From Kumtagia ephedrae (GTDB lineage: Bacteria; Pseudomonadota; Alphaproteobacteria; Rhizobiales; Rhizobiaceae): a stretch of DNA of 64,000 nucleotides. How positions within the stretch are numbered: position 1 is the stretch's first letter; each line of letters begins with the position of its first letter. The notes beneath the pieces are model-generated. The model was not told the origin of the DNA, ran no database searches, and saw nothing but the letters and a program-made list of their open reading frames with translations. The stretch lies in the NCBI RefSeq assembly GCF_003012745.1, contig NZ_PXYK01000011.1:62001-126000 (forward strand). Reading direction: 5' to 3'. Positions 10,239 through 31,198 of the stretch are shown here, piece after piece. Made by a program: the position numbers and the translations under genes.

Positions 10239-10391
10239 GTCCGAACGTTGGGGAGCCAAGGGCGTCAGTTCCTTCCCCGTTGCCGGCCGCCCAAGGCCGG
10301 CGGAGGACGTGGGGGGAGGAATGCACGGACAATTGCCGCATGCATTGTCGACCGCCGGTTGCGCCGGGAAGGCGCGCCCGGAGGTTGCGCG

Positions 10392-11915: not shown

Positions 11916-11928
11916 GGAGACGAGCGAC

Positions 11929-12999
11929 GTGACCTTGGAAAATCCGACCATGACGCAGCGCGCGCCGACGCAACCGGGCGGCCTGGCCGCGCTACGCGGC
12001 AAGATCTCCTTCATCGACCTCATGCAGAGCGCGGGGCTGATGGCGGTCATCCTGCTCGGCTGTGCCGTGATGAGTTTCCTCAGCCCGGTCTTCGCCACGG
12101 TGCGCAACATCGAGAACGTGCTGCAGTCGGCGACCATCATCGCCGTGGTGGCGATCGGCCAGACCTTCGTCATCCTGGTCGCCGGCATCGACCTGTCGGT
12201 GGCGTCGGTGCTGGTGCTGTCCTCGGTGCTGTCGGTCGGGCTGGTGCAGTTCCAGGGCTGGCCGCCAGAGCTTGCCATCCTCGCGGCGCTCGTCGCCGGC
12301 CTCGTCATCGGCCTGGTCAACGGGCTCGCCGTCACCAAGCTGAAGATCCCGGCCCTGATCGCCACGCTGGCGACGATGACGATCGCACGCGGGCTCGCCT
12401 ACATCTATTCGGGCGGCACCAACATCGCCCCGGTGCCGCGCATCTTCGTCGACCTGCAGGCCAGCCGCATCTTCGGCGTGCCGGGCGTCATCGTGCTGAC
12501 GCTGGCGCTGGCGCTGATCGCCCAGATCGTGCTGTCGCGCACCCAGTTCGGCCGCTCGGTCTACGCCACCGGCGGCAATCCGCTGGCGGCGCGGCTGGCC
12601 GGCATCAAGACGGAGCGGGTGATCATCGCCACCTTCATGATCTCGGGCCTGATGGCGGCGATCGCCGGCCTCCTGATCACCGCGCGCTTCGAGGCGGGCG
12701 CGGCGACGGCGGCGCAGGGCATGGAGCTTGCCGTCATCGCGGCGGTGGTGATCGGCGGCGTCAGCCTGTTCGGCGGCGAGGGCAACATGGGCGGCATGCT
12801 GCTCGGCGTGCTCCTGCTCGGGCTGGTGCAGAACGCCGTCAACCTGCTCAACGTGCCGCCCAACTGGGACTCGGTGGTCAGCGGCCTGGTGATCGCGGCG
12901 GCCGCCGCGCTCGACGTCTACCGCCGCAACTATCTCGAGGCAGGCATGCGCAAGAAGGTCATAGCAGCAAAGGCGAGCAAACCGGCCAAGCAGCCCTGA
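11929..12999 (+). CDS. Ribose-type sugar ABC transporter permease
   Basis: RbsC/BPD_transp_2 family inner-membrane permease of 356 aa. Hydrophobic segments run from about 'GLMAVILLGCAVMSFL' to 'SGLVIAAAAALDV'; family signatures are 'TFVILVAGIDLSVASVL', 'GLVIGLVNGLAVTKLKIPALIATLATM' region, and 'AAVVIGGVSLFGGEG' near the C-terminus. I prefer the GTG at 11929, with GAGGAG (11914-11919) 9 bp upstream, to the ATG at 11899, which lacks a ribosome site and overlaps the ATPase gene by 17 bp. It partners the ATPase upstream and the binding protein at 13205. Confidence 0.9.
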   Translation: MTLENPTMTQRAPTQPGGLAALRGKISFIDLMQSAGLMAVILLGCAVMSFLSPVFATVRNIENVLQSATIIAVVAIGQTFVILVAGIDLSVASVLVLSSVLSVGLVQFQGWPPELAILAALVAGLVIGLVNGLAVTKLKIPALIATLATMTIARGLAYIYSGGTNIAPVPRIFVDLQASRIFGVPGVIVLTLALALIAQIVLSRTQFGRSVYATGGNPLAARLAGIKTERVIIATFMISGLMAAIAGLLITARFEAGAATAAQGMELAVIAAVVIGGVSLFGGEGNMGGMLLGVLLLGLVQNAVNLLNVPPNWDSVVSGLVIAAAAALDVYRRNYLEAGMRKKVIAAKASKPAKQP

Positions 13000-13204
13000 C
13001 GCAGCAAGCCGCGGCCGCAAGCCGGCCGCGCGGACGAACACGAGACGACCTGCCAAGCGAGCGCCTTCCGGCGAACGGGAGAATTTTTGCGCGCGCGCTC
13101 GCCGAGCACAGCGACGGCCGCGGCTCGCGCCGCGACGACTGCCGGGGCGGCCGCTGGCCGCGACGGAGCAATGCCCAACCACGGTCCAACAGGGAGGAGA
13201 CACC

Positions 13205-14200
13205 ATGGACATCCGCAACAGACTGAAAACGACACGCCGCAACCTGCTCGGCCTTGCCGCCGGGGCGGCGGCGCTCGCGATCGTGCCTTTCGCCGCGCAG
13301 GCCGAGGACGGCGTGCTGAAAGGCAAGAACCTCGCCTACATCGCCTTCGGCCTGCAATACGAATACCAGGTCACGCTGGTGAACCGGGTGAAGGAACTCG
13401 CCGCCGAGAAGGGGATGAGCATCTCCGTCTATGACGGCAAGGGCGACCCGAGCACGCAGACCACGCAGCTTCTCGACGTGGTCAGCAAGCAGCCCGACAT
13501 CATCCTGCTCAATCCGGTCGACGCAAAACTGCTGCAGGGCGGCGTGCGCAAGGCCAACGAATCCGGCATCCCGCTGTTCATGCTGGAGAACCTGCCGCCG
13601 GAAGGCGAGTGGGTCGCCTACAACACCTTCGACGACGTGGCGGGCGGTGCGGCCGGCGCCGACGCCATCGCCAAGCTGATCGGCGGCAAGGGTCTGGTGC
13701 TGGAGGTGCGCGGCGCCATCGGCTCCGGCCAGTCGGAAAAGCGCTACAAGGGTTTCCATGACCAGGTGGCGGCGAAATACCCCGACATCAAGGTGGAGAC
13801 GCTGAAGGCCGAGTGGACGGCCGACAACGCCCACACCCTGGTGCTCGACGCCTTCACCCGCGACCCCAACGTCGCCGGCATCTGGGCGCACAATGACGAG
13901 ATGATCCGCGGCGTCGTGTCGGCGCTGCGGCAGATCAACCGGCTGAAGCTCGCCGGCGAGGAAGGCCATGTGCCGACCGTCGGCTTCGACGGCACGCCGC
14001 TCGGGCTCGAGCGCATCCGCGAGGGCACACAGGACGCCGATGTCGGCCAGAACCCGTTCTCCATGGCCGAGTCGATCGTCGGCGAGATGGAGAACCATTT
14101 CGCCGGCAAGCCGGTCGCCAAGGAGACGCTGATCCAGCCGGTGATGATCTGGAAGGAGAACGTCGACAGCCCGGACAACTGGGGCAACCGCGTCAACTGA
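13205..14200 (+). CDS. Periplasmic sugar-binding protein, ribose/LacI-like type
   Basis: Type 1 periplasmic binding protein of 331 aa (Peripla_BP_4). The N-terminus carries a possible twin-arginine signal, 'TTRRNLLGLAAGAAALA', ending near 'FAAQA-ED'. Binding-fold motifs include 'STQTTQLLDVVSKQPDIILLNPVD', of which the core is 'PDIILLNPVD', then 'FDDVAGGAAGADAIAKL', 'GIWAHNDEMIRG' and 'VGFDGTPLG'. GGGAGGAG lies just upstream of the ATG. A 205-bp G/C-rich gap without clear terminator separates it from the permease. The ligand cannot be read from the sequence. Confidence 0.9.
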   Translation: MDIRNRLKTTRRNLLGLAAGAAALAIVPFAAQAEDGVLKGKNLAYIAFGLQYEYQVTLVNRVKELAAEKGMSISVYDGKGDPSTQTTQLLDVVSKQPDIILLNPVDAKLLQGGVRKANESGIPLFMLENLPPEGEWVAYNTFDDVAGGAAGADAIAKLIGGKGLVLEVRGAIGSGQSEKRYKGFHDQVAAKYPDIKVETLKAEWTADNAHTLVLDAFTRDPNVAGIWAHNDEMIRGVVSALRQINRLKLAGEEGHVPTVGFDGTPLGLERIREGTQDADVGQNPFSMAESIVGEMENHFAGKPVAKETLIQPVMIWKENVDSPDNWGNRVN

Positions 14201-17178: not shown

Positions 17179-17672
17179 ACCCGCTTTCGCCGCAATCCCG
17201 GCGGCGGGCGAGAGACGCGTTTCCGCCGATTTTCATCCCCGCCCTTCCCGCTTCCTCCATAATCCCGGCAGTTCCTCCCGCGGGAACACCGGTCGCGACG
17301 GTGGTTTGGTGGGGAGGGACCGGCGCCTCCGGTGCGGGAAGACGTAGCCCGCGCCCGGGGAGGCCCGTCCGAAGGTTCCTCCTCCGCAACTATGTGCGGG
17401 GCGCACTGGACGAGTGCTGCGGCATGGCCAGCCGAGGCGACGCAAGAAGCCGGAGCCGGAGCTATAGCGAAGCGGAACGGGACGGTGCCCGAAATCGCCG
17501 GCGGGGCGCGAAGACCGCGCCATGTTTTTACTAAAGAGGCTCGGCCCAGCGCCCCGCTTCCCGACTTCTCCCTCCGCGGCAGGGAGCGCTCTTTGAACAA
17601 CGGCCAGACTGCGAAGGCAGGGCGTGGCGAGGATGAGGCGCGGCTTCTCTTCTCTCGATGGGTGGCCGCGAA
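17179..17672. other. Gene-poor spacer
   Basis: Part of the 684-bp gap between the FAD oxidoreductase and the end of the leftward operon. Apart from small G/C palindromes (for example TCCCGCGGGA at 17276-17285) I see no supportable gene. The open frames across it have low-complexity Arg/Gly/Pro composition and no family motif. Confidence 0.5.
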
Positions 17673-17727
17673 GCGCGAGACGGTGGCGTCGACACGCCCG
17701 CGGCGCGACATCCTTGATGGTAGCCAT
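17673..17727 (-). pseudogene. Fragment of the 5' end of a LacI-family regulator gene
   Basis: On the minus strand an ATG at 17727 starts 'MATIKDVA', the invariant opening of LacI-family repressors. The following bases fit 'RR-GVS-ATVSR' only when two or more small deletions are allowed; 'ATVSR' is encoded at 17673-17690 in a shifted frame. The recognition helix is therefore broken and no downstream ligand domain is present. It directly follows the last gene of the leftward operon. Confidence 0.45.
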
Positions 17728-17763
17728 GATTCTCCGCGCCGGATTTCTTCCGGCCGCACTACG

Positions 17764-19569
17764 CTACGGCTGCTCGCGCGCCGCAAGCGCGTCGACCACC
17801 GCCCGGTCGGCCGCCAGGATTTCGGCGATGAGCACGCCGCGCTCGCGCGCTCCGACGAATTCGAGCCGGCGCAGCCCGAGCGGGTCGATGCGGCGGCGCA
17901 GGATCTCGATCGTCTCGCCATCGGGTGCTGCAATCTCGCCGCAGCGCTCGGCGAAGCGGACGGGGAAGCCGGTCGCCCGGCTGACGGTGTCGCGGCCGAC
18001 GCCGGGCATCAGCTCGGTGACCACCAGTTCGCCGCTCGCCGGGTCGAGCTCGAACACGCAGAGGTCGGTGAACAGTTTTGTCCCGCTGGTGCGGTAGCCG
18101 TGCCTCGCCCGCTCCTCGGCATCGAGCAAGCCGCGCGCCGAGCTGACGATGTCGACCTCGGCGACCAGCGACAGCGGCGAATGGCGGGTGACGTAGAGCA
18201 CGCAGTCGCGGTGCATGTTGGCGACGTCGGCCATGCCGCCCTGGCCGGGCAAGCGGATGAAGCCGCCCTTGGCGCGGCGGATGGCGATGTTGTTGACGCG
18301 GGCGAAGCGGTCGACCTGGGCGGCGGCGATGATCTCGTGGGTGACCGCGCCGGCCTGGTAGAGCGCCGAATAGGTGTCGTCCCCGCCGGCATGCGCGGCC
18401 GCGGTCTCCGCATCGAAAACCTCGATCAGCGACAGCAGCAGGGGCGACGGCGCGACGTCGATATGGCCGCAGCTCATGGTGGCAATGATCATGCCGGGGG
18501 CATGCGTCGCCTTGGCCAGCCGGTAGGCGACATTGGCGAGCGGCGACACCGCGCCGGCCGAGGCGAAGCTGTCGTTGTCGAGCTCGGCCGCGAGCCGCAC
18601 CGCCATGACCTCGTCGACCGTTGCCGGCGCGGGTGCGGCATGCACGGCCGGCAGCGGCATGTGGGCGGCGGCAGCGGCGCTGATCCCAGCGGCCTTGCGC
18701 AGGCGGATGGGGACACCGTCCTTCGGCAAGGCAAGCCCGTCTGCAAGGGAGGCTCCGCCGGCCAGGACGGAAGCCAGAGCTTCGTAGTCGGTCACATAGT
18801 GCGGCAGGCAGGAGGTCGGCCAGGCGCCGCCGGGCACCTTCGCGATGGCGCTGACCTGGTTGCGATAGATCACCGTCTGGCGCCCCATGCCCGCAAGTAT
18901 GCCCACCGGCACGATCTCGTCCACGGTGACCAAGACCTTGTGCGCCGCGCCGGCCATGGCGAGGTCGAGGGCGCGGGCGCCGACGATCTGCACATTGCCG
19001 CTCTCGTCGGCGCGCGGGGCGTGCAGCAGCAGCGTGTCGAGGACGAGCGGCGGGACGGCGCCGACCGGCTCGCCGGTGAGCGGGTCGGCGACGCTGCGCG
19101 CCGTCGGCATGCGCTCCATCATCGCCGAGCCCCGCGGCAGCTGGAAGGTGCGGCTGGGCAGGTTCTGCTGGGCGGCGCGCAGCGCCTCGATCATGGCGAG
19201 CGCCGTCCAGTCGCGCACCGGCAGGCGCTCGGCCTCCGCCGCCGCCCGGAAGCGCGGCGGCAGGCCGAAAATGTCGAGGCTGGAAAAGCAGATGTCGATC
19301 GAGGCGACGGCGTCGGCCTCCAGCAGGATCTCCAGCGGCAGCCCACCCGCCCAGGCGCAGTAGCGCAGGTCGCGCGCCTTGCCACCGGCAACGGCGCGCA
19401 GCAGCGCGATCGGCAGCCGGGCGAAATGATGGCCGCCGACGCCCAGCCGGTCGCCGTCCGCGACCATGGCCGCCAGCCCGGCGAGATCGGTGAAGACAGG
19501 ACGGTTGGGTTTGGTCAGATTTCCGGCCGTATCCCGGTGGGAAGCGCCAGGTTCGCCGGCGCCGGTCAC
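17764..19569 (-). CDS. Fused IpdA-IpdB/GctA-GctB type CoA-transferase-fold protein, probable CoA-ester hydrolase
   Basis: Protein of 601 aa joining two normally separate subunits. Residues 1-295 resemble the alpha subunit (IpdA/GctA: 'GDRLGVGGHHFARLP', 'SIDICFSSLDIFG'). An Ala/Pro-rich linker spans about 295-317. Residues 318-601 resemble the beta subunit ('HAPGMIIATMSCG', 'AAQVDRFARVNN', 'AEVDIVSSARGLL', 'RRRIDPLGLRRLEF'). In glutaconate CoA-transferase the catalytic glutamate lies in a VESG motif after 'APD-HII'; here the same place reads T364-M-S-C-G368, without Glu. IpdAB, which opens a steroid ring as a CoA ester, also lacks it. I infer a hydrolase acting at the end of this operon. GTG start overlaps the hydratase stop (GTGA). 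Confidence 0.78.
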   Translation of the reverse strand: MTGAGEPGASHRDTAGNLTKPNRPVFTDLAGLAAMVADGDRLGVGGHHFARLPIALLRAVAGGKARDLRYCAWAGGLPLEILLEADAVASIDICFSSLDIFGLPPRFRAAAEAERLPVRDWTALAMIEALRAAQQNLPSRTFQLPRGSAMMERMPTARSVADPLTGEPVGAVPPLVLDTLLLHAPRADESGNVQIVGARALDLAMAGAAHKVLVTVDEIVPVGILAGMGRQTVIYRNQVSAIAKVPGGAWPTSCLPHYVTDYEALASVLAGGASLADGLALPKDGVPIRLRKAAGISAAAAAHMPLPAVHAAPAPATVDEVMAVRLAAELDNDSFASAGAVSPLANVAYRLAKATHAPGMIIATMSCGHIDVAPSPLLLSLIEVFDAETAAAHAGGDDTYSALYQAGAVTHEIIAAAQVDRFARVNNIAIRRAKGGFIRLPGQGGMADVANMHRDCVLYVTRHSPLSLVAEVDIVSSARGLLDAEERARHGYRTSGTKLFTDLCVFELDPASGELVVTELMPGVGRDTVSRATGFPVRFAERCGEIAAPDGETIEILRRRIDPLGLRRLEFVGARERGVLIAEILAADRAVVDALAAREQP

Positions 19570-20366
19570 GGCCTGGCTCCCGCCGCCTTCTCGGCCGCCC
19601 GCGCCGCGCTCTTCGCGGCAAACTCCCGGACCCGGCGCTGGCCGGTCTCGCCGCGGTAGAGTGTTGCGAGCAGCGCGCGTTCTTGTTCCAAGCCGGCTGC
19701 GAGATCGCCGCCGGTGGCGATGGCCGTCAGCCGCTTCATGCCCTCGACCGCCTCGGCCGGCTCGCCGGCGATGGCCTCGGCGATTGCCACCGCCCGCGGC
19801 ATCAGCTCTTCGGGCGCCACGACGTCATTGACGAGGCCCGGAGCGACAAAATCGGCGGCCGGCACGATGGCACCTGTCATCAGCAGAAAATTGGCGCGGT
19901 TGCGGCCGAGCTTGACGACGCTGCGCTGCGTGCCGCCGCCGCCCGGCACGAGGCCGAGCTTGATCTCCGGCAGGCCCATTCTGGCCAGAGAAGAGGCGAC
20001 GACGATGTCGCAGCACAGCACCAGCTCGAAGCCGCCGCCCAGCGCGAAGCCGTTGACGGCGGCGATGACAGGCTTGCGGCAGCCTTCGATGGCCGCATAC
20101 ATCGCGGTGCCCGCGGCCTGGAAGGCGTCGAACTCCGCCCCGGTCTGCGCGGCATATTCCTTGATGTCGGCGCCGGCCATGAAGGCGCGGCCTTCGCCGG
20201 TGACGACGACGCAGCCGACATCGGCATCGCCGGACAGGGCGATGAAGGCGGCAGTGATCTCGGCCTGCATGGCCTTGTTCATGGCGTTGAGCTGGTCGCC
20301 GCGCCGGAACGTCACCACGGCGACGCGGCCGTCTTTTTCAACCGACAGCGTCCGGTAAGAGGTCAC
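19566..20366 (-). CDS. Enoyl-CoA hydratase/isomerase family protein
   Basis: Crotonase-fold enzyme of 266 aa acting on a CoA thioester. The oxyanion-hole segments are 'AFMAGADIKEY' and 'GFALGGGFELVLCCD', and both glutamates used by hydratases are present ('GGFEL' and 'GLPEIKLGLVPGGGGTQR'). Hydration of a 2-enoyl-CoA is therefore plausible, but crotonases also catalyse isomerisation or C-C cleavage. The GTG at 20366 is preceded by GGAGG on the minus strand; the longer open frame upstream is the shadow of the CoA-transferase gene. It lies between the CaiB-type CoA-transferase (2-bp gap) and the IpdAB-like gene (4-bp overlap), so it is a core pathway step. Confidence 0.9.
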   Translation of the reverse strand: MTSYRTLSVEKDGRVAVVTFRRGDQLNAMNKAMQAEITAAFIALSGDADVGCVVVTGEGRAFMAGADIKEYAAQTGAEFDAFQAAGTAMYAAIEGCRKPVIAAVNGFALGGGFELVLCCDIVVASSLARMGLPEIKLGLVPGGGGTQRSVVKLGRNRANFLLMTGAIVPAADFVAPGLVNDVVAPEELMPRAVAIAEAIAGEPAEAVEGMKRLTAIATGGDLAAGLEQERALLATLYRGETGQRRVREFAAKSAARAAEKAAGARP

Positions 20367-20368
20367 GG

Positions 20369-21571
20369 TCAGGCCTCCGCGACCGTCATGTCGCCGGCCG
20401 CCTCGAGCGCGGCGATCTCGTCGGCGGGCACGCCGAACTCGGCAAGGATCTCGCGGCCGTGCTGGCCGACCAGCGGCGCCGGGCGGTCGATGGTCGCCGG
20501 CGTCTCGCTCATCCTCACCGCGGGGCCGATGACCTTCACCGTGCCGGCCTTCGGATGCTCGTAGCTGGCGATCAGGCCGAGATGGGTGACCTGCGGATCC
20601 TCGGCGGCGGCGCGGATGTCGTGGACCGGAGCGCACCAGATGTCGGCGTCCAGCAACTTCTCCAGCAGCTCGCCGCGGCGATATTTGCGCGTCTCGGCAT
20701 TGACCTTCTCCCACACTTCGTCACGCTTGGCGAAGAGCGTCTCCAGGTCGTCGTAGACGGCGAGATGCGGCGCCTCCAGCACCTGGTAGAGCGTCTTGAA
20801 CGGGCTCATGGCGATGGTGACGTAGCCGTACCTCGTCTCGTAGACGCCGAACGGCGCCTGCATGCCGGGATGGCCGATGCCGGAATTCGGCCGCACGAAA
20901 TCCTCGCCGAGATTGAGCACGCCGACATATTCCTGGCCGAGATGGGCGAGCATGCCGGCGAGCAGGTTCACCTCGACCTTCTGGCCCTTGCCGGTCTTTT
21001 CGCGATAGTAGAGCGCGGACAGGATGCCGTAGACCATGTTCATGGCGCCGATCTGGTCGGCGAGCCCGGCGCCGGCCGGCACTGGCGCGGCGTCGCCGCG
21101 GCCGGTGTTGGCGATCAGCCCGGCCAGGCCCTGGATCAGCATGTCCTGCCCGGGCCGGTCGACATAAGGACCGTCCTCGCCATAACCGGAGCCGGAGCAA
21201 TAGATGATGCGCGGGTTGACGGCCTTGAAGTCCTCGTAGCCGTAGCCGAGTTTCGCGAGCACGCCGGGGCGGAAATTCTGGACGACGACGTCGGCCTGCT
21301 CGGCCATCCTCATCACCAGGGCATGCACCTTGCGGCTTTTCAGATTGAGCGCGATCGACCTTTTGTTTCGGTTCCAGGCGAGGAAGTTGGGGCTTTCCGA
21401 GCCACCCACCCATTTGGCGAAGAAGGTCATCGAGCGGAACATGTCGCCGGCGCCGGCGCGCTCGACCTTTATGACGTCGGCGCCCATGTCGGCGAGCAGC
21501 TGGGTGGCGAACGGCCCCTGTAGCAGGTGGCTGAAGTCGAGGATCTTTACGCCGGATAGGGCCTTGTCCAT
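20369..21571 (-). CDS. CaiB/BaiF (family III) CoA-transferase
   Basis: Family III CoA-transferase of 400 aa, which moves CoA between an acyl-CoA donor and a carboxylic acid by a ping-pong-like route through an aspartyl-CoA anhydride. Key features are the N-terminal 'KILDFSHLLQGPFATQLLADMGADVIKVE', here cited by its core 'ADMGADVIKVE', the 'VVQNFRPGVLAKLG' block and the catalytic Asp in 'RPGQDMLIQG'. C-terminal 'WCAPVHDIRAAAEDPQV' is normal for the family. It probably activates the imported carboxylate to its CoA ester, the entry step for the hydratase and IpdAB-like protein encoded downstream. Confidence 0.92.
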   Translation of the reverse strand: MDKALSGVKILDFSHLLQGPFATQLLADMGADVIKVERAGAGDMFRSMTFFAKWVGGSESPNFLAWNRNKRSIALNLKSRKVHALVMRMAEQADVVVQNFRPGVLAKLGYGYEDFKAVNPRIIYCSGSGYGEDGPYVDRPGQDMLIQGLAGLIANTGRGDAAPVPAGAGLADQIGAMNMVYGILSALYYREKTGKGQKVEVNLLAGMLAHLGQEYVGVLNLGEDFVRPNSGIGHPGMQAPFGVYETRYGYVTIAMSPFKTLYQVLEAPHLAVYDDLETLFAKRDEVWEKVNAETRKYRRGELLEKLLDADIWCAPVHDIRAAAEDPQVTHLGLIASYEHPKAGTVKVIGPAVRMSETPATIDRPAPLVGQHGREILAEFGVPADEIAALEAAGDMTVAEA

Positions 21572-21601: not shown

Positions 21602-22387
21602 TCAGACGAGATCCGGCACGAAGCGGGGCGCGGCGGTGAGGCCGCCGTCGACGCGCAGGTCGGTGCCGGTGGTGAAGCCGGCGGCGTCGCTCGCCAGGTA
21701 GACGGCGGCTTCGGCGATCTCGGACGGCCTGCCGATGCGGCCGAGCGGGTGCATCTTCACCCAGGCGCGGGCGATGTGCTCGCCGAGCTCGGCGATCACT
21801 TGGTCGTTCATCGGCGTGGCGATAGTGCCGGGCGAGATCGAGTTGACGCGCACATTGTGGGGGCCGAACTCGACCGCCATCTGGCGGGTCATCGAATGGA
21901 TCGCGCCCTTGGCGCCGGCATAGGCGGTCCAGCCGTCGAGGCCGATATGGCCCTGCGCCGAGGCGAGGTTGATGATCGAGCCGCTCTTCTGGCCGATCAT
22001 GTGGGGCAGGGCGAACTTGCAGCCGCGGAAGACGCTGGTGAGATTGACCGCGATCAGCCGGTGCCACTGCTCGTCGGTCATCTCGTAGACCGGCATGCCG
22101 CCGATCGAGATCGCCGCGTTGTTGACCAGCACGTCGAGCCGGCCGCCCTTCTTCACCGCGGTCTCGATCAGGTTGCGGATGTCGGCCTCGACGGCCACGT
22201 CGCAATGGACGTAGTCCGCCGCAAGCCCCTGGCTTCTCAGCCCGGCGGCGAAGGCCTCGCCCTTGGCGTCGGCGATGTCGCTGGCGAAGACATGAGCGCC
22301 TTCGCGGGCCATGGCTTCGGCTATGGCGTGGCCGATGCCGTCGGCAGCGCCCGTGACGACCGCGATCTTGCCGTTGAGACGTCCCAT
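21602..22387 (-). CDS. SDR family NAD(P)-dependent dehydrogenase
   Basis: Classical SDR of 261 aa, cytoplasmic. Cofactor loop TGAADGIGHA, 'CDVAVEADIR', 'NNAAISIGG', catalytic Ser in 'NLASAQGH', YxxxK as 'YAGAK', and C-terminal 'GRPSEIAEAAVYLASDAA'. The ATG at 22387 has GAGGAGGA immediately upstream on the minus strand. It sits 10 bp after the second permease and 30 bp before the CoA-transferase gene, so it may oxidise or reduce a hydroxyl of the imported compound before or after CoA activation. The substrate is not recognisable. Confidence 0.9.
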   Translation of the reverse strand: MGRLNGKIAVVTGAADGIGHAIAEAMAREGAHVFASDIADAKGEAFAAGLRSQGLAADYVHCDVAVEADIRNLIETAVKKGGRLDVLVNNAAISIGGMPVYEMTDEQWHRLIAVNLTSVFRGCKFALPHMIGQKSGSIINLASAQGHIGLDGWTAYAGAKGAIHSMTRQMAVEFGPHNVRVNSISPGTIATPMNDQVIAELGEHIARAWVKMHPLGRIGRPSEIAEAAVYLASDAAGFTTGTDLRVDGGLTAAPRFVPDLV

Positions 22388-22397
22388 GAAATCCTCC

Positions 22398-23399
22398 TCA
22401 GATGCGCCGGCGCTTGAATTCGTCGAAGGCGACGGCGGCGATGATGATGCCGCCGGTAACCACGAGCTGCCACTCGGTGGCAAGGGCCAGCATGCCGAGA
22501 CCGTTGGATAGAAAGGACAGGATCAGCACACCGAGCGCCATGCCGAACAGGCTGCCGATGCCGCCCGACAGGCTGACGCCGCCGAGCACCACGGCCGCCA
22601 CCACCTGGAACTCGAAGCCGAGGCCGGCGACATGCACGGCCGAGCCGAGGCGGGAGGCGAGCATGATGCCGGCGACCGTGGCGAGCAGGCCGCTGATGAT
22701 GAAGCAGGCGAATTTCACCCGCTTGACGCTGTAGCCGGCGAGCCGCGCCACCTCGGGATTGCCACCGACGGCATAGACCTGGCGGCCGAAGGGCCGGTGG
22801 CGCATCACATAGGCGAAGGCGAGCAGCAGCACGAAGGCGATCAGCGCGGGGTAGGGGAGCAGGCCCAAGAGCCGGCCGTTGCCTATCTGGAAGAAGCTTT
22901 CCAACATCGCTTCGTCGGGGATCGCCGTCTGGCCGGTGTAGAGATAGACGCCGCCGCGGAGGATGAAGAGCGTGCCCAGCGTGACGATCAGCGAGTTGAT
23001 GCCGAGATAGGCCGAGAGATAGCCGTTGACGGCGCCGACGACGAGGCCGAGCGCCAGGGCCGCGGCGATGCCGAGGAAGAGCGATTCCGTGGCGTTCATG
23101 ACGACGATCAGCGGGATCGCCACCGCCGCCACCAGCGAGCCCACCGACACGTCGACCTCGCCGGAGATGAAGACGATGGCGACGCCGATGCCGGCCGTCA
23201 TGGCGAGCGCCGACTGGCCGAGGACGTTGGCGATGTTGCGCGTCGTCAGGAAGGTGTCGGAAGCGATGGAGAAGAAGGCGATGACGACCAGCAGGGAGAT
23301 CAGCAGCGGGATCTCGCTGCGCCTGAACAGCGCCTTGAGCATGGCCGCCGCCGGAGCGGGCGGCGGGACGGGATGGGCGGCGTCAAGCGATTGCGGCAT
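22398..23399 (-). CDS. Ribose-type ABC transporter permease (second permease)
   Basis: RbsC-like inner-membrane permease of 333 aa. Family blocks: 'GIGVAIVFISGEVDVSVGSLV', 'GLVVGAVNGYLSAYLGINSLIVTLG' with core 'INSLIVTLGTLFI', 'YAVGGNPEVARLAGY' and 'AAVVLGGVSLSGGIG'. The first 17 bp overlap the end of the ATPase gene, a frequent coupling in these operons. The operon encodes two different permeases, so the channel is probably a heterodimer. The C-terminus ends with 'AVAFDEFKRRRI'. Confidence 0.92.
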   Translation of the reverse strand: MPQSLDAAHPVPPPAPAAAMLKALFRRSEIPLLISLLVVIAFFSIASDTFLTTRNIANVLGQSALAMTAGIGVAIVFISGEVDVSVGSLVAAVAIPLIVVMNATESLFLGIAAALALGLVVGAVNGYLSAYLGINSLIVTLGTLFILRGGVYLYTGQTAIPDEAMLESFFQIGNGRLLGLLPYPALIAFVLLLAFAYVMRHRPFGRQVYAVGGNPEVARLAGYSVKRVKFACFIISGLLATVAGIMLASRLGSAVHVAGLGFEFQVVAAVVLGGVSLSGGIGSLFGMALGVLILSFLSNGLGMLALATEWQLVVTGGIIIAAVAFDEFKRRRI

Positions 23400-24906
23400 T
23401 GAGGATATTCTCCTGGGTCGCCGCGTCGCGGTCGAAGACGGCGGTGATGCGGCCCTCAGCCATCACGGCGATGCGGTCGGACAGGCCGAGCAGTTCCGGC
23501 ATCTCGGACGTCATCATGACGACCGCCAAGCCTTCGTTGGCGAGCCGGTCGAGCAGCGCGAAAATCTCGGACTTGGCGCCGACATCGATGCCGCGCGTCG
23601 GCTCGTCGACGACGATCACCTTCAGCCCGCGCATCAGCCAGCGGGCGAGCAGCACCTTCTGCTGGTTGCCGCCGGACAGGTTCTTGATCAGCTGGTTGAG
23701 CGACGGCGTGCGGACGCGGAACCGGTCGACGAAGCCCTGCACGGCCGCCTTCTCGCGGGTTTCGTCGACGAAGCCGGCGCGGCTGAAGGCGCCGAGCGCG
23801 GCGAGGCTCATGTTCTGCTGGACCGAAAGCTCCAGCATCAGGCCCTCGCCCTTGCGGTCCTCGGTGAGCAGGCCGATGCCGAGGCCAGCGCCGGTGCGCG
23901 TGTCGTGCGGCTTTAGCGGCCGGCCTGCGACTTCGATCGTGCCGGCGCGGATCGGATCGAAGCCGACGATCGCCTTGGCCAACTCGGTGCGGCCGGCACC
24001 CATCAGGCCGAAGAAGCCGAGCACCTCGCCGGCACGCACCTCGAAGGAGACGTCGTCCAGCTTCGCGTCTGTCGACACGCCCTTCACCGACAGCGCGATG
24101 TCGCCCTTGGCGTGGCCGCGCGAGCGCGGAAACAGATTGTCGATGCGCCGGCCGATCATGTCTTGGATCAGCGTGTCGTGCGTGTGCTCGCCGATCGGCC
24201 TGGTCGAGATGTGGCGGCCGTCGCGCAGCACCGTGACCGTGTCGGCGATCTCGAACACCTCGTCGAGCTTGTGGGTGACGTAGAGCACGGCGATGCCGAG
24301 ATCGGTGAGGCGGCGGATCACCTTGAACAGCAGCGCCACCTCGTTGGGCGTCAGCGAGGAGGTCGGCTCGTCCATGACGACGATGCGCGCCTCGTGCGCC
24401 AGGGCCCGTGCGATCTCGACCATCTGCTGCTGGCTGACCGGCAGGTCGCCGGTGCGTGCCGCCGGGTCGACGTCGAAGCCGATGCGCTCGAACAGCGCCG
24501 CCGATTCCGCGCGGATCTTCTTCCAGTCGATCGAGCCGGCGCGCCCGACCGGATGGCGCTCCAGGAAGATGTTCTCCGCCACCGTGAATTCGGAGATCAG
24601 CGCGATCTCCTGGAAGACCACCTTGATGCCTTCCGCCAGCGCCTCGCGCGGGTTGCGCAACGCGACCTCGCGGCCGCCAATGTTGATCGAGCCGGCATCC
24701 CTGCCATAGACGCCGGCCATGATCTTGATCAGCGTCGACTTGCCGGCACCGTTCTCGCCCATCAGGGCGTGCACCTTGCCGCGGGCGAGCACGAGGTCGA
24801 CCTCTTCGAGAGCGATGACGCCTGGAAACCGCTTGCCGATGCCATGCATCTCGATGGCGGCACCCGTATGTGCGCCGCCGCGCTCCTGGACCAGTTCAGC
24901 GTGCAT
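23383..24906 (-). CDS. Ribose-type ABC transporter ATPase (tandem NBD)
   Basis: RbsA/MglA-like ATPase of 507 aa. First domain: Walker [11 protein letters not shown], 'VVFQEIALI' Q-loop, signature 'LPVSQQQMVEIARAL', Walker B 'IVVMDEPTSSLT', switch His in 'YVTHKLDEV'. Second domain: '[13 protein letters not shown]', signature [14 protein letters not shown] and 'VIVVDEPTRGIDVGAK'. It lies between the two permease genes, overlapping one by 17 bp and the other by 11 bp. Together with the binding protein at 25945 it forms a complete importer for the substrate of this CoA-linked operon. Confidence 0.93.
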   Translation of the reverse strand: MHAELVQERGGAHTGAAIEMHGIGKRFPGVIALEEVDLVLARGKVHALMGENGAGKSTLIKIMAGVYGRDAGSINIGGREVALRNPREALAEGIKVVFQEIALISEFTVAENIFLERHPVGRAGSIDWKKIRAESAALFERIGFDVDPAARTGDLPVSQQQMVEIARALAHEARIVVMDEPTSSLTPNEVALLFKVIRRLTDLGIAVLYVTHKLDEVFEIADTVTVLRDGRHISTRPIGEHTHDTLIQDMIGRRIDNLFPRSRGHAKGDIALSVKGVSTDAKLDDVSFEVRAGEVLGFFGLMGAGRTELAKAIVGFDPIRAGTIEVAGRPLKPHDTRTGAGLGIGLLTEDRKGEGLMLELSVQQNMSLAALGAFSRAGFVDETREKAAVQGFVDRFRVRTPSLNQLIKNLSGGNQQKVLLARWLMRGLKVIVVDEPTRGIDVGAKSEIFALLDRLANEGLAVVMMTSEMPELLGLSDRIAVMAEGRITAVFDRDAATQENILNAAIA

Positions 24907-25882
24907 CGGCGCGCCTCCTGACGATGTCCAGCCAGGTCGCCAGGATGATGACGATGCCGGGCACGACCATTTGCAGGTCCTGGTTCCAGCGCAGGATGAT
25001 GATGCCGTTGTCGATGACCTTGAGCACCAGCACGCCGAGCAGGGTACCGATCAGCGTGCCGCGGCCACCGGACAGGCTGGTGCCGCCGAGGATGACGGCG
25101 GCGATCACGGTGAGCTCGAAGCCGCGGCCGGCGGTCGGCTGGCCGGCATTCATCAGCGAGGCGAGGATCATCCCGGCGACGCCGACCAGCAGGCCGGTGA
25201 CGACGAAGGCGATCAGCTTCAGCCGCTCGGCGCGCAGGCCGGAGAGCCGCGCGGCGTTCTCGCTGGCGCCGACGGCGTAGAGATAGCGGCCGAAAGTGGT
25301 GTAGCGCAGCGCGACGAAGGCGACGACGAAGACGATCGCCGCGATGATGACGGGGATCGGCAGCGGGCCGATATAGCCGGCACCGAGACCGGTGAAGGAA
25401 GGCAGGTGGTGGTGGTTCTGCACCGCTTCGCGTGTGTAGAGGAACACGCCGCCCTGCAGCATCATCATGGTGGCGATGGTGCCGATCAGCGAGTTGACCC
25501 GCAGGCGGGTGGCGACGATGCCGTTGAACAGCCCGACGGTTCCGGCGAAGGCGAGCGCCGCCAGCACGCCGAGGGTCAGCGACCCCGTGCGGTTGATGAC
25601 GTCCATGCCGATGCAGCCGACGAATGCCAGCGAGGCGCCGACCGACAGGTCGACCTCGCCGCAGATCAAAAGCATGGTCATGCCGGCGGCGACGATCAGC
25701 ACCAGCGCGCACTGGCGCAGGATGGCGATGACGTTGGCCTCCGAATAGAACTGCGGCGCGGCGAGCGAGATGGCGATGCACAGCGCCGCCAGGATGCCGA
25801 TCAGCACGATCTGGCTCCTGTCGGCGAACAGGCCGAAGGCCGTGCCCGGTTTGCGCGTCGATGATAGGGATTCGCTGGTCAT
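24896..25882 (-). CDS. Ribose-type ABC transporter permease (first permease)
   Basis: RbsC-like permease of 328 aa with about eight to ten hydrophobic segments. Family blocks: 'MTMLLICGEVDLSVGASLAF', 'GLFNGIVATRLRVNSLIGTIATM' (core 'RVNSLIGTIATMMM'), 'YAVGASENAARLSGL' and 'AVILGGTSLSGGRG'. Encoded 62 bp after the binding protein and overlapping the ATPase gene by 11 bp. It differs clearly from the second permease at 22398, for example in its N-terminus 'KPGTAFGLFADRSQIVL', so the pair is not a recent duplication. Confidence 0.92.
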   Translation of the reverse strand: MTSESLSSTRKPGTAFGLFADRSQIVLIGILAALCIAISLAAPQFYSEANVIAILRQCALVLIVAAGMTMLLICGEVDLSVGASLAFVGCIGMDVINRTGSLTLGVLAALAFAGTVGLFNGIVATRLRVNSLIGTIATMMMLQGGVFLYTREAVQNHHHLPSFTGLGAGYIGPLPIPVIIAAIVFVVAFVALRYTTFGRYLYAVGASENAARLSGLRAERLKLIAFVVTGLLVGVAGMILASLMNAGQPTAGRGFELTVIAAVILGGTSLSGGRGTLIGTLLGVLVLKVIDNGIIILRWNQDLQMVVPGIVIILATWLDIVRRRADAR

Positions 25883-25944: not shown

Positions 25945-26976
25945 TTACTGCTTCAGATCGGCGGCGGTCTTCATGCACTTGTCCGGCGCCTGGACGCCGT
26001 TGATGCCGTCCCAGTTGACGCTGCGCGTCGTGCCTTCGACGGAATAGAACTTCTTCCAGTCCTCGCCGAGCATCGGCGCGGTCGGGCTGACGATGTGCTC
26101 CGGCACTTCCTCGCCGTTGAACACCTTCACGGCCGCGTCGACGGCGGTGAAGCCGACCTTTTCCGGGAACATCGCCGCCTCGATCTTGTAGGACGGCTCG
26201 TTCTGCATGGCGTTTATGAAGGCAAGGCCCTCGCCGCCGGTGCCGACGACCAGCAGGCCGTCCTGCGACTTGCCGGCCGCCTTCCATGCCTGGAGGCCGC
26301 CGAGCGAGGAGTTGTCGTTGATGCCGTAGATGATGTTGATGTCGGCATTCTGTGCCAGCGCGGCCGACGACACTTCCAGCGCGCGGTCCGGATTGCCGCC
26401 GCCATCGAGGTCGTGCACCATGGTCGCGTCGGCGATCTCGGTCTTGATGCCGTCCATGAAGCCCTGCGAGCGCAGCACGGTGGCCGACAGCAGCGGCAGG
26501 CCGACATTCATCACCTTGGCGGTGCCGCCGAGATGCTCCTTGGCGTATTTGCCGGCCGCAACGCCGGCGTGGTAGCCGGTGTCGTAGTCGCAGATCGCCA
26601 CCATGGTGGTCATGCCCTTGACCGGATTGCCTTCCAGCACCAGCGGCATGTTGTCGGCCTTGGCGCGGCGGATCAGTGGCGCGACGCCCTCCTCGTTGAC
26701 CGGCGTAATGATCAGCACGTCGACACCCTGCGCCATGAAGTCCTCGGCGAACGAGACCTGCTTGGCGACGTCGAGATTGGCGTCCTTGACCTCGATCTCG
26801 ATACCGAGCTGCTGGCCGCGATCCCTCATGCCCTTGATGACGTTCTGGTACCACTCGTGCGTGGCGTAGTTGACGACGTAGCCGATCTTCTTCGGCGTAT
26901 TCTGCGCCAGCGCCGTACCGGCGAGCGCACCGAGCGCCACCGATGCCGCGAGCGTGGTCTTCAGCAATTTTCTCAT
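25945..26976 (-). CDS. Periplasmic sugar-binding protein, ribose type
   Basis: Type 1 periplasmic binding protein of 343 aa. It starts with a Sec signal 'MRKLLKTTLAASVALGALAG' and a likely cleavage after 'TALA'. Ligand-fold blocks are 'YATHEWYQNVIKGM', 'VDVLIITPVNEEGVAPLI', 'IYGINDNSSLGGLQAW' and 'VVGTGGEGLAFI'. Its ATG overlaps the IclR stop codon (ATGA), so it is translationally coupled to the regulator. Ligands of this family are normally sugars, polyols or cyclitols, yet the downstream enzymes are CoA-dependent; a hydroxylated carboxylic acid or a polyol that is first oxidised would reconcile both. Confidence 0.92.
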   Translation of the reverse strand: MRKLLKTTLAASVALGALAGTALAQNTPKKIGYVVNYATHEWYQNVIKGMRDRGQQLGIEIEVKDANLDVAKQVSFAEDFMAQGVDVLIITPVNEEGVAPLIRRAKADNMPLVLEGNPVKGMTTMVAICDYDTGYHAGVAAGKYAKEHLGGTAKVMNVGLPLLSATVLRSQGFMDGIKTEIADATMVHDLDGGGNPDRALEVSSAALAQNADINIIYGINDNSSLGGLQAWKAAGKSQDGLLVVGTGGEGLAFINAMQNEPSYKIEAAMFPEKVGFTAVDAAVKVFNGEEVPEHIVSPTAPMLGEDWKKFYSVEGTTRSVNWDGINGVQAPDKCMKTAADLKQ

Positions 26977-27839
26977 GTCTTCCTCCCTTTGTGACCCGGG
27001 CGTTCCGGGTCTTGGTCCGATGGTCTGTCGCCTGAAACTCTTGCCCGTCCCTCGGCGGCTCCCAGGCTGCGCGAGATCTCGATCGCCGCGATGGCGGCCT
27101 CCTCCAGCACGGCGAGGCGGTCGAGCCGCGCCTGCTTCTGCGGCAGGTAGGGGACGGTGAGCGCGGCGATGGTCGCGCCGGTATGGTCGCGGATCGGCAC
27201 GGCGATGTTGGTGCAGCCCTCGACGGCGAGCGAAGCGCGCATCTCGTACCCGTTGGCTAGGATATCGGCGATGCGCTGCTCGACCGCGTCGCGCGGCATC
27301 TCGGCCTCGCCGGCCGCCACCAGCCGGTCGACCAGCGCGGCGCGTTCCTGCGGCGGCGTGAAGGCGAGCAGTACGGCGCCCGAGCTGGTCTCCAGGATCG
27401 GAAAGTGCGAGCCGAGTGCCACCGAATAGCGCATCGGCAGCGGCGAATCGACCTGCAGCACGATCAGCACGCTGGAGCCGCGCAGCACGACGAGGTGGCA
27501 GCTCTGGTTGGCACGCGCGGCAAGGTCGCGCATCACCGGCAGCGCCACGTCGACCAGCCGGTTCACCGGCGGGTGCATATGCGCCAGCTCGAACAGCTTC
27601 AGCGACAGCCGGTAGCGATCGGATTTCGTGCGGATCAGATAGCCGCGCCCTTCGAGCAACTGGATGATGCGGTAGACCTCGTGGATCGACCGGCCGAGCG
27701 CGGCCGAGATCTCAGTCTGCGTCACGTCCTCGCGGCAGGCGGCCATGAACTCCAGGATGTCGAGCGCCTTCTCGGCGGCCGGCACCTTGTAGTCGCGGCG
27801 CGCGATCTCGACGTCGTCATTGGCGGGCTCGACGCTCAT
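26973..27839 (-). CDS. IclR family transcriptional regulator
   Basis: Regulator of 288 aa. Residues about 20-90 form the winged HTH ('AAEKALDILEFMA', 'TQTEISAALGRSIHEVYRII', 'GYLIRTKSDRYRLSLKLFEL'), and the C-terminal IclR effector domain follows ('SCHLVVLRGSSVLIV', 'ILETSSGAVLLAF', 'NIAVPIRDHTGATIAALTV'). I chose the ATG at 27839, which overlaps the stop of the upstream gene by 4 bp; an open frame continues to 28142 but has no HTH homology. As the second gene of a long operon it probably controls that operon; a palindrome at 29054-29069 in the promoter region is a candidate site. Confidence 0.92.
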   Translation of the reverse strand: MSVEPANDDVEIARRDYKVPAAEKALDILEFMAACREDVTQTEISAALGRSIHEVYRIIQLLEGRGYLIRTKSDRYRLSLKLFELAHMHPPVNRLVDVALPVMRDLAARANQSCHLVVLRGSSVLIVLQVDSPLPMRYSVALGSHFPILETSSGAVLLAFTPPQERAALVDRLVAAGEAEMPRDAVEQRIADILANGYEMRASLAVEGCTNIAVPIRDHTGATIAALTVPYLPQKQARLDRLAVLEEAAIAAIEISRSLGAAEGRARVSGDRPSDQDPERPGHKGRKT

Positions 27840-29005
27840 ACGGCTCTCCGGTCCGGCTGGGCGCCTGCCAGGGACAGCGCGTAGCGGCGATCCAGCCAGC
27901 CGGCGAGGGCGGCCGGCGCCATCTCGCCGTCGATGGCGGCAACGATTTTGTGCGTCGCCTCGCGAAAGAAGTCGACGAAACCGGGATGCGTCGGCCTGAG
28001 ATAGGAGCCGTCGAGGGTGGCGAGCGTATCGCGAAAGAAGCCACGGGTCTGCTCGTTCACGGCGTCGTCGAGCCACGCGGCGCGCGAGCCCGGCTGGCCG
28101 CCATGAGCGACGTAGTCGCCGCGCTGGTAGGTTTCGGAGCACAGGAACAGCGCGTATTCGGCCGCCGCATCCGGATGCTTCGAGAAGGCGCTGACGCCGA
28201 TGCCCGCGCCGCCGAGCAGGGCGCCGCGCGGCGGGCTGCTCGGGACGTCGCCGAAGGCAAGCGCCGGTCCTTCGTGGCGCGCCGCGTAGTTCACATAGCC
28301 GAAGGCGTAGGGGACGTAGACCGTGTCGTCATGCGTGACCATGTGGTCGAAGCAGCGGATCGGGTTCCATTCGCGAGAGCCCGGGTGGGCGAGGGCGGCG
28401 AGCTCCCGCAGCTCGCCGACAATGCGCTCGACGCTTGTCCGCGGCAGGAAGCCGCCGTTGGCGCCGATCGTCTCGCCGGCGCCGGCGGCGAGCGAGAGCA
28501 CCAGGCACATGGCGTCGGTCGGCACCAGCGGCAAGGCGATCCACTTGCCGTCACTGCGCAGGTTGCGGGCGAGGTCGAGCACATCGGCATAGCTCGCCGG
28601 AAAGCGCTCGGTATAAGCGGCAAGGAGATCGGGGCGGCAGGCGGCGACCTGCGCGGCGGCATCGATCGGCAGCGCCCATTGCCGGCCGAGCGCCTGGTAG
28701 GAGCGCCAGGAGGGGCCGACGCTGTCCATTTCGAAGCGCCGCCGCTCGGTTTCAGACAGACAGGCGTCGAAAGGCACCATCAGCCCGGCGGCGGCGATGT
28801 CGCCGATGAAGGGATGGTCGAAGATGACGAGATCGTAGCGGCGGACGACCTCCTCAATGCGGCCTTCGCCGAACTCGAACAGGCTGCGGCGATCCCAGGA
28901 AATCCGGATGTCGGGATGGCTGGCGCGATAGGGCGCGACACTCGCGTCGAGCGGTCCCCAGCAGCGCCTGTGATCCCAGGCCAGTCCGCGCAGTTCGATT
29001 GCCAT
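27836..29005 (-). CDS. Solute-binding-like protein without signal peptide
   Basis: Protein of 389 aa with the fold pattern of type 2 extracellular solute-binding proteins ('VVRRYDLVIFDHPFIGDIAAAG', core 'DLVIFDHPFIGD', then 'WALPIDAAAQVAA', 'GKWIALPLVPTD', 'GIGVSAFSKHPDAAAEYALFL'). It begins 'MAIELRGLAWDHRRCWGPL' directly at the first beta-strand; no Sec, Tat or lipoprotein signal is seen from this start or from the possible start at 29068. The ATG at 29005 follows GGAGG closely. It is the first gene of the CoA-linked operon, coupled to IclR by a 4-bp overlap. It may bind the pathway compound in the cytoplasm, as sensor or carrier; this is inference. Confidence 0.8.
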   Translation of the reverse strand: MAIELRGLAWDHRRCWGPLDASVAPYRASHPDIRISWDRRSLFEFGEGRIEEVVRRYDLVIFDHPFIGDIAAAGLMVPFDACLSETERRRFEMDSVGPSWRSYQALGRQWALPIDAAAQVAACRPDLLAAYTERFPASYADVLDLARNLRSDGKWIALPLVPTDAMCLVLSLAAGAGETIGANGGFLPRTSVERIVGELRELAALAHPGSREWNPIRCFDHMVTHDDTVYVPYAFGYVNYAARHEGPALAFGDVPSSPPRGALLGGAGIGVSAFSKHPDAAAEYALFLCSETYQRGDYVAHGGQPGSRAAWLDDAVNEQTRGFFRDTLATLDGSYLRPTHPGFVDFFREATHKIVAAIDGEMAPAALAGWLDRRYALSLAGAQPDRRAV

Positions 29006-30193: not shown

Positions 30194-30247
30194 AATCTCC
30201 GGTGCTAGTCTTCCAGCCACAAGGTGAGAGGACCTTGGGGAGGAACC

Positions 30248-31129
30248 ATGCCGTCGCAGATCGCCACGCCGACTTTCGGCGAGGAGACGTCGTTCGACAT
30301 CGTCGCGCAGCGCCTGGCCAAGGCGGATGCGGGCCGGCTGTCGAAAACGCTGATCTCCGCGGTTGCGCATCTCCATCAGCTCGTGCGCGAGATGCGGCCG
30401 ACGCCGGCCGAGTGGCGCGGCATCGTCGCGTTCCTAACCGAGGTCGGCCATGCCAGCGACGACAAGCGACAGGAATGGGTGCTGCTGTCGGATCTGCTCG
30501 GCGTGTCGGCGCTGGTCGAGGAGATCAATGCGCGGCGGCCGCGCGGCGCGACGCCGAACACCGTGCGCGGCCCATTCTACCGGGCCGACGCCCCGCGCCT
30601 GCCCAATGGCGCCAATATTTCCCTGGACGCCGCCGGCGAGCGGCTCACCGTGCGTGGAAAGGTGCTCGACCTCGACGGAAAGCCGGTCGCCGGCGCCGTC
30701 GTCGAGACGTGGCAGGCAAATGACAAGGGTTTTTACGAGAACCAGCAGCCGGACCTGCAGCCGGAGTTCAACCTGCGCGGCGTCTTCACCACCGACGCCG
30801 GCGGCGCGTTCACCTACGCGGCCGTGAAGCCGGCCGGCTATACGGTGCCCGACGATGGACCGGTGGGACGGCTGCTGCGCCTGGTCGGCTGCCCGCTCAG
30901 GCGCCCGGCGCATCTTCATTTCGTCGTCAATGCCGAAGGCTTCGAGACGATCACCACGCATGTGTTCGACCGCACCGACGCCGAACTGCACGAGGACCCG
31001 CTGTTCGGGGTAAGGCCGGAACTGCTCGGCGACATAAGGCACGAGACCTGCAAGGGCGGGAAAATCGCCTGGGGACTGGATTTCACCTTCGTCATGGTGC
31101 GCGCCAGGCCAGGAAGGCGGACGGCATGA
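30248..31129 (+). CDS. Hydroxyquinol/catechol 1,2-dioxygenase-like intradiol dioxygenase (copy 1)
   Basis: Non-heme Fe(III) intradiol ring-cleavage enzyme of 293 aa. An N-terminal helical dimerisation domain ('FDIVAQRLAKADAGRLSKTL', 'EWRGIVAFLTEVGHASDDKRQEWVLLSD', core 'LTEVGHASDDKRQEW') precedes the catalytic beta-sandwich. The four iron ligands are visible as Tyr163 ('GFYENQ'), Tyr198 ('AGYTVPDDGPVG') and His222/His224 ('RPAHLHF'). Length and ligand spacing fit hydroxyquinol 1,2-dioxygenase, giving maleylacetate, and maleylacetate reductase is encoded three genes on. ATG 30248 has GGGGAGGA in front. A second gene of the same family is at 41201 at the end of the operon; they may prefer different hydroxyquinols. 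Confidence 0.9.
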   Translation: MPSQIATPTFGEETSFDIVAQRLAKADAGRLSKTLISAVAHLHQLVREMRPTPAEWRGIVAFLTEVGHASDDKRQEWVLLSDLLGVSALVEEINARRPRGATPNTVRGPFYRADAPRLPNGANISLDAAGERLTVRGKVLDLDGKPVAGAVVETWQANDKGFYENQQPDLQPEFNLRGVFTTDAGGAFTYAAVKPAGYTVPDDGPVGRLLRLVGCPLRRPAHLHFVVNAEGFETITTHVFDRTDAELHEDPLFGVRPELLGDIRHETCKGGKIAWGLDFTFVMVRARPGRRTA

Positions 31130-31198
31130 TCGCAACGAACTTTGCCGGCCGGCAATGGCCGCGCCATCGCTAAACGGTTCAAGCAAAGGGAGGAACCA

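Follow-up and report, generated by a model that had tools for sequence, protein, structure and literature searches.

A single-chain CoA-transferase-fold protein that lacks the catalytic glutamate, encoded in a sugar-type operon of Kumtagia ephedrae: a candidate for C-C bond cleavage of a CoA ester

The window analysed here is a stretch of 64,000 nucleotides from Kumtagia ephedrae (Rhizobiaceae; contig NZ_PXYK01000011.1, positions 62,001 to 126,000), and coordinates given without a locus number refer to it. Positions 17764 to 19569 of its minus strand encode GCTfus, a protein with the fold of glutaconate CoA-transferase (GCT) in which the two subunit types are fused. GCTfus is a new branch of a known superfamily, fused and without the usual glutamate. 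We propose, with a probability of roughly 50%, that this one-chain protein of the class I CoA-transferase superfamily, having lost the Glu used for covalent catalysis, cleaves a C-C bond of a CoA ester. The predicted fold, the fusion, the missing Glu, the conserved partner genes of the short-chain dehydrogenase (SDR) and CaiB types and the sugar-type neighbours are all observed.

The original prediction had read this open reading frame as the two subunits of a normally two-gene enzyme joined by an Ala/Pro linker, and that description holds. The features of the gene are as follows.
17764..19569, minus strand: GCTfus, fused GCT-fold protein of 601 aa, GTG start (open reading frame, Pfam, PDB-chain matches, orthologs, model with pLDDT 90.4)
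18700..19569, minus strand: alpha-type half, residues 1-290, closest to AibA (sequence and predicted structure)
18619..18687, minus strand: linker, Ala/Pro-rich and variable, residues about 295-317 (sequence, family alignment, model)
17767..18618, minus strand: beta-type half, residues 318-601, closest to AibB (sequence and predicted structure)
18472..18474, minus strand: Ser366 codon, corresponding to the GctB catalytic Glu and to AibB Cys56 (alignments)

The Pfam CoA_trans match (3.6e-18; 66.2 bits against a curated cut-off of 23) and the two-domain predicted fold place GCTfus in the class I CoA-transferase superfamily, and the NCBIfam match to 3-oxoacid CoA-transferase is weak (21.6 bits, cut-off 128.5). 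In phmmer searches the PDB chains of AibA, GctA and IpdA match residues about 16-270 and those of AibB, GctB and IpdB residues about 317-570; with matches to both kinds of subunit, GCTfus combines an alpha half with a beta half. The linker varies in the family alignment and is mostly loop, of lower confidence, in the model. Scanning species genomes with 13 aligned fused proteins gave 74 named loci; because an exact CFSSLDIF or NVAYRLAK peptide was required, the spread thus described is a lower bound, and conservation within C94 to F101 (D99 included) and N346 to K353 is partly due to the construction of the search. In 64 of the 74 loci a single frame runs through both halves, the other ten being explained by contig edges, a stop or a split match, and in locus L095 the list of open reading frames holds a single frame of 576 aa. 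The fusion is thus real and not an artefact. Fusion of this fold is not new by itself, since SCOT and YdiF also carry alpha and beta parts in one chain. These two proteins, of low identity to GCTfus, presumably have the catalytic Glu and act in ketone-body or short-acyl metabolism.

The beta subunit of GctAB-type enzymes carries the catalytic Glu54 in an ESG motif. As the original prediction had pointed out, GCTfus reads T-M-S-C-G at residues 364 to 368, and phmmer aligns S366 with the column of AibB Cys56, the residue varied in the C56 structures. Across 47 distinct fused proteins residue 366 is Ser (32), Asn (8), Thr (6) or Ala (1), and in none is it Glu, Asp or Cys; in the aligned sequences the usual catalytic Glu is therefore absent from the whole family. 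Among 23 distinct two-gene rows aligned with hmmalign, 15 have Glu in this column, 12 of them within an exact ESG motif; the two-gene paralog of the source genome (L002) is one of those with the Glu. In the remaining eight, the Glu lies two columns off (L120), the residue is Ala (L012), the row is poorly aligned (L016, L017) or there is no residue (four rows). Glu is thus, as far as the alignment tells, the rule among two-gene relatives, yet not universal. The neighbouring Cys367 was rejected as a substitute nucleophile resembling AibB Cys56. It sits next to the aligned column instead of in it, and it varies across the 47 proteins (C 24, G 17, Y 3, S 2, A 1), so it cannot be essential.

The solved proteins nearest to GCTfus are AibA and AibB, which form the 3-methylglutaconyl-CoA decarboxylase of Myxococcus xanthus (PMC7756340). 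With phmmer, residues 31-270 match AibA at 8.7e-23, followed by IpdA and GctA near 1e-11, and residues 317-568 match AibB near 1e-13, GctB at 2.2e-8 and IpdB at 2.2e-5. An AlphaFold2 model made from 37 family sequences (mean pLDDT 90.4, pTM 0.91) was compared with solved structures as global fold matches, and SCOT, YdiF, AibAB, IpdA and GctA all match it at Z 22-28. Over the whole chain the best are SCOT (3k6m_C, Z 27.6, 3.0 A, 430 residues, 20% identity) and YdiF (Z 27.4, 3.0 A, 448 residues). Taken by halves, AibA is the best match of the alpha half (Z 25.5, 2.0 A, 252 residues, 31% identity) and AibB of the beta half (Z 25.5, 2.6 A, 242 residues, 28% identity), with IpdA (Z 23.4, 2.9 A, 264 residues) and GctA (Z 22.2, 2.8 A, 281 residues) behind them.

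What is reported of these relatives bears directly on the proposal. According to the available portion of PMC7756340, AibA/AibB acts on a CoA ester, the Glu of GCT is replaced in it by Cys, this Cys56 is non-essential, and AibB tolerates Ser and Asn in its place, with a warning of misfolding for one variant; Ser and Asn are residues that the GCTfus family naturally holds at position 366. AibA/AibB differs from GCTfus in having two chains, in Cys56 as against Ser, Asn, Thr or Ala, in sequence (about 30% identity) and in its role in isovaleryl-CoA biosynthesis, whereas GCTfus sits in a sugar-type operon. IpdAB, the COCHEA-CoA hydrolase of steroid degradation, also combines the GCT fold with a missing Glu (Gly57 in RHA1); the available text of PMC5380842 assigns it as a retro-aldol type C-C hydrolase, reports that CoA transfer among short acyl groups went undetected, and describes a pathway with CoA-ester C-C cleavage, SDR and EchA-type enzymes. 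Both characterised Glu-less relatives, AibAB and IpdAB, hence act on a CoA ester by C-C cleavage, as far as these portions of the two papers go (PMC7756340, PMC5380842). GctAB shares with GCTfus the fold, the Gly-rich loop and sequence matches to both halves, but has Glu54 and transfers CoA, the Glu forming an anhydride during transfer (PMC5380842, same portion).

GCTfus is the last gene of a row on the minus strand; the crotonase gene just before it ends in a stop codon that overlaps the GTG of GCTfus, as fits a single operon. The other genes are listed here from GCTfus outwards.
19566..20366, minus strand: crotonase/enoyl-CoA hydratase (Pfam; GTG start by eye; stop overlapping the GCTfus GTG)
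20369..21571, minus strand: CaiB-type class III CoA-transferase, Asp172 conserved (Pfam, PDB match)
21602..22387, minus strand: SDR dehydrogenase, Ser-Tyr-Lys conserved, start by eye (Pfam, PDB match)
22398..23399, minus strand: CUT2-type sugar ABC permease B (Pfam, NCBIfam)
23383..24906, minus strand: CUT2-type sugar ABC ATPase, RbsA-like (Pfam, NCBIfam)
24896..25882, minus strand: CUT2-type sugar ABC permease A (Pfam, NCBIfam)
25945..26976, minus strand: periplasmic sugar-binding protein, RbsB-like (family and ribose-binding protein matches)
26973..27839, minus strand: IclR-type regulator, start by eye (family match)
27836..29005, minus strand: SBP_bac_1-type solute-binding protein, no leader visible by eye (family match; kept near SDR, CaiB and GCTfus in other phyla)

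Read in the direction of the genes, the order is SBP_bac_1, IclR, binding protein, permease, ATPase, permease, SDR, CaiB, crotonase and GCTfus. From the binding protein to GCTfus it is kept in 12 of 12 orthologous loci, in some of which the binding protein is truncated by the end of the stretch, save that no crotonase was found in L045. Counted on the same strand within 12 kb of the 74 named loci, SDR genes occur in 72, CaiB in 71, SBP_bac_1 in 55, SMP-30 in 53, crotonase in 44, mutarotase-like genes in 42 and RraA-like genes in nine; short contigs lower these counts, and several loci of both the 12-locus and the 74-locus sets come from the same genome. The nine acidobacterial loci have GCTfus in nine, SDR and CaiB in eight each, the solute-binding protein in five and crotonase in none. 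SDR and CaiB being nearly constant and crotonase patchy, the core is SDR, CaiB and GCTfus, and cultured Mesorhizobium, Kaistia and Bauldia are among the bacteria that have it. Both a CaiB-type gene and a crotonase had been predicted for the operon and are there; crotonase as an essential partner is ruled out by its distribution.

The partner enzymes look active, judging by their conserved residues. CaiB Asp172, which we take to be the catalytic Asp of class III CoA-transferases, aligns with an Asp of 9br6 and is Asp in 70 of 70 rows, the window's own row included; the nearest PDB chain is a succinate-hydroxymethylglutarate CoA-transferase (6.3e-66). The Ser-Tyr-Lys of the SDR is kept in 71 of 71 best matches at 35% identity or more, and the crotonase Glu pair, both of the catalytic type by their motif, in 41 of 41 matches at 50% identity or more.

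Sugar-type genes recur around this core. The transporter of the window scores best against arabinose and ribose systems (AraH/RbsA-type), below the NCBIfam cut-offs, and the periplasmic binding protein against ribose-binding proteins. In many loci an SMP-30/gluconolactonase-type protein adjoins GCTfus, and a protein without any Pfam, NCBIfam or PDB sequence match lies between crotonase and GCTfus. The predicted structure of the latter (pLDDT 94.8) has a mutarotase fold and matches aldose 1-epimerases and mutarotases (3nre_A, E 8.9e-15, TM 0.64, 15% identity). In L092 (Pelagibacteraceae) a PfkB kinase and a KDPG aldolase come next, followed by a UxuA-type protein on the opposite strand; in L100 UxuA directly follows the solute-binding protein, and in L105 a UxuA-type protein directly follows GCTfus. 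An SMP-30 protein and a RhaT permease lie just upstream in L109, and GH38 enzymes occur near the module in L101 and L094. Judged from the neighbours alone, none of mannose, rhamnose, mannosylglycerate, cyclitols and aceric acid could be fixed as the substrate; nor did the SBP_bac_1 and RraA-like proteins narrow the choice.

From this context we infer the use of CoA by GCTfus, its substrate, the order of steps and the C-C cleavage. The transporter, the mutarotase-fold protein and the SMP-30-type lactonase would supply a sugar-derived acid, a (poly)hydroxy or dicarboxylic acid that CaiB would charge with CoA. Oxidation of a hydroxyl by the SDR would follow, a 3-keto acyl-CoA being the simplest product, and GCTfus would break the activated C-C bond and release CO2 or a shorter acid with no covalent glutamyl step. 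Its reaction would be a decarboxylation, as in AibA/AibB, or a hydrolysis, as in IpdAB, and not the movement of CoA between acids. In Rhizobiales and some Actinobacteria, crotonase may also dehydrate or hydrate the ester, and in some lineages mannonate dehydratase, PfkB kinase, KDPG aldolase or an RraA-like aldolase may take the products onward. As a more tentative extension, these genes may mark a widespread, undescribed route that breaks down a sugar or a sugar acid by way of CoA thioesters, akin to a beta-oxidation of sugar acids (lactone opening, CoA charging by CaiB, 3-keto formation by SDR, then the Glu-less fused lyase), in rhizobia, SAR11, Vibrio, Acidobacteria, Actinobacteria and Chloroflexota.

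Several observations weigh against C-C cleavage as proposed here. A conserved Glu elsewhere that reaches the active site, which the original prediction had set against its own claim, may exist. The tallied positions invariant in all 47 fused proteins are E80, D99, A123, G368, D371, E383, E412, Q443 and H453 (H48 is conserved in 44), and any of E80, E383 and E412 might serve as the nucleophile of a true transferase. The proton donor of AibB, Glu72, aligns with Ile382 in both phmmer and hmmalign, one residue off the invariant E383; a slip of one residue is possible, and AibB-like acid catalysis is therefore not established in GCTfus. The place of IpdAB Glu105, located by comparing 6coj (PDB title IpdAB E105A) with 6co6, whose printed sequences differ there from Glu to Ala, is A123 in GCTfus and Ala in 47 of 47. 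L012 and perhaps further two-gene relatives also lack the Glu at position 366, so its loss is not exclusive to the fused family. In the source genome itself the mutarotase-like match (35%, E 2.3e-11) and the SMP-30 match (31%, E 2.6e-6) are distant, and neither protein is therefore strictly needed. Finally, the nearby sugar genes could belong to neighbouring pathways, as the UxuA-type gene of L092 on the other strand illustrates.

GCTfus might still be a CoA-transferase that passes CoA between a sugar-derived and a second acid, its missing Glu made up for by one of the invariant E80, E383 and E412 or by a ternary complex. The fold and the Gly-rich loop are retained, and E412 corresponds to Gly in ESG relatives and to Val in AibB. 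We nevertheless consider this improbable: the Glu is gone from every member examined, a second transferase would look redundant where CaiB, whose Asp is conserved, is already close by (71 of 74 loci), and transfer by GCT runs through the Glu anhydride in the portion of PMC5380842 cited above. Enolisation of the CoA ester without cleavage (an epimerase, isomerase or dehydratase), or plain CoA-ester hydrolysis, is also unlikely, if less so. Decarboxylation and retro-aldol cleavage would run through a common type of enolate, three distant loci have UxuA-type proteins close to the module, where an epimerised aldonate is a possible product, and the structure title of CtfAB E46D reads 'active site mutant hydrolase'. 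In contrast to that mutant, residue 366 of GCTfus is never Asp, and C-C cleavage is the reaction of both Glu-less relatives that have been characterised, in the portions of PMC7756340 and PMC5380842 already cited.

The original prediction labelled the protein as IpdAB/GctAB-type and expected ring opening or C-C hydrolysis of a new substrate. The GCT fold stands, as do CoA-ester C-C cleavage, as the leading guess, and a new substrate. A ring-cleaving hydrolase of the IpdAB type acting on a carbocyclic CoA ester would agree with the shared fold (IpdA Z 23.4), the missing Glu, the CoA activation genes and the crotonase; the four best PDB matches of the SDR include dihydroanticapsin dehydrogenase and cyclohexanol dehydrogenase, and a sugar-like cyclitol is a ring. 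We regard it as very unlikely. IpdAB is encoded by two genes of a steroid cluster, and as nearest relative it is ruled out by sequence, by structure and by the Glu105 column: AibAB is closer, the E105A residue aligns with an invariant Ala, and IpdA falls outside the fused clade of the alpha-half tree. Mutarotase and lactonase neighbours suit sugars better and crotonase is optional; with sugar-type genes as the recurring neighbours, ring opening is left without positive support. C-C cleavage by GCTfus of the CoA ester of a sugar-derived acid remains our preferred reading.

At E 1e-60, GCTfus was found in two of 61 relatives, G051 and the source genome, and is missing from three congeneric genomes; the same threshold gave 13 of 397 genomes of the order, the source genome included, one of 385 genomes of the class, the source genome itself, and four of 398 genomes of the phylum, all from its family. 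At E 1e-3 some match was present in 24 of the 61 relatives, mostly to separate halves, and in G034 and G042 the match spans both halves with an internal stop at 27-30% identity. The 74 loci lie in Alphaproteobacteria (Mesorhizobium, Bauldia, Kaistia, Bosea, Devosia, Prosthecomicrobium, Rhodobacteraceae, one metagenome-assembled genome (MAG) of Pelagibacteraceae and similar uncultured ones) and, elsewhere, in Vibrio penaeicida, Acidobacteria, one Anaerolineae MAG and Actinobacteria. Among the SAR11-like loci the Pelagibacteraceae label belongs to L092 alone; L094-L097 and L118 are uncultured Alphaproteobacteria grouped with it by likeness. In a FastTree phylogeny of the alpha half (64 sequences, 248 columns, midpoint root) the 37 fused proteins group together as one clade (support 0.90), with AibA, GctA, IpdA and the two-gene relatives outside, and a single fusion event would be the simplest reading of this topology. 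One scan of viral contigs with the GCTfus protein alone found no relative, and plasmid records gave distant matches only (233 records, all below 60% identity). A contig labelled as a Bifidobacterium breve MAG (L119) holds an SDR, a CaiB and the start of a GCTfus in a layout like that of the actinobacterial L115 and L116, and its label may be a binning error.

Other features were seen in passing. A mutarotase-fold family of about 340 aa, matched by neither Pfam nor NCBIfam, is tied to the GCTfus operon (L049:8961-9971 and orthologs). Where many relatives have SMP-30, no gene was recognised in the source genome; at about 17640-17730 on the minus strand, right after GCTfus, we take the first codons to resemble the start of a LacI-type regulator, a motif seen by eye, before the likeness is lost. 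A solute-binding-protein fold (SBP_bac_1/8) without a visible leader recurs near SDR, CaiB and GCTfus in several phyla (window 27836-29005, minus strand; L100:11749-12924; L109:12920-14083; L115:13458-14651, minus strand); the protein is probably cytosolic and may be a chaperone of sugar intermediates, a sensor or an unrecognised enzyme. Proteins of about 755 aa, by eye with a signal like that of twin-arginine translocation and with no Pfam match above threshold, lie upstream of the acidobacterial SDR-GCTfus pair (L101:6769-9057, L103:6791-9049), and downstream of the Vibrio penaeicida gene (L089:14956-16981) are genes that we take to resemble pseudouridine kinase and pseudouridine-5'-phosphate glycosidase. 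Two further gene groups lie on the plus strand of the window. At 10248-14200 the ATPase, permease and binding protein of another CUT2-type sugar transporter precede an LVIVD-repeat protein and an FAD oxidoreductase; at 30224-32146 the gene of an intradiol ring-cleavage dioxygenase and, after it, that of a glyoxalase-family protein stand next to a LysR gene.

In searches of the open-licence literature aimed at them, we found no description of two CoA-transferase folds together with sugar-handling genes, or of a CoA-linked sugar pathway. AibAB and IpdAB make the proposed chemistry thinkable and so lower the surprise; a CoA-linked sugar pathway would raise it, since to our knowledge CoA esters are not usually found in sugar catabolism. 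If the proposal is true, GCTfus would be a third Glu-less lineage of the class I CoA-transferase fold, fused, with a chemistry of its own and present in several phyla. The annotation of such genes, likely labelled as CoA-transferases, would have to be corrected, and CoA esters would enter the catabolism of sugars.

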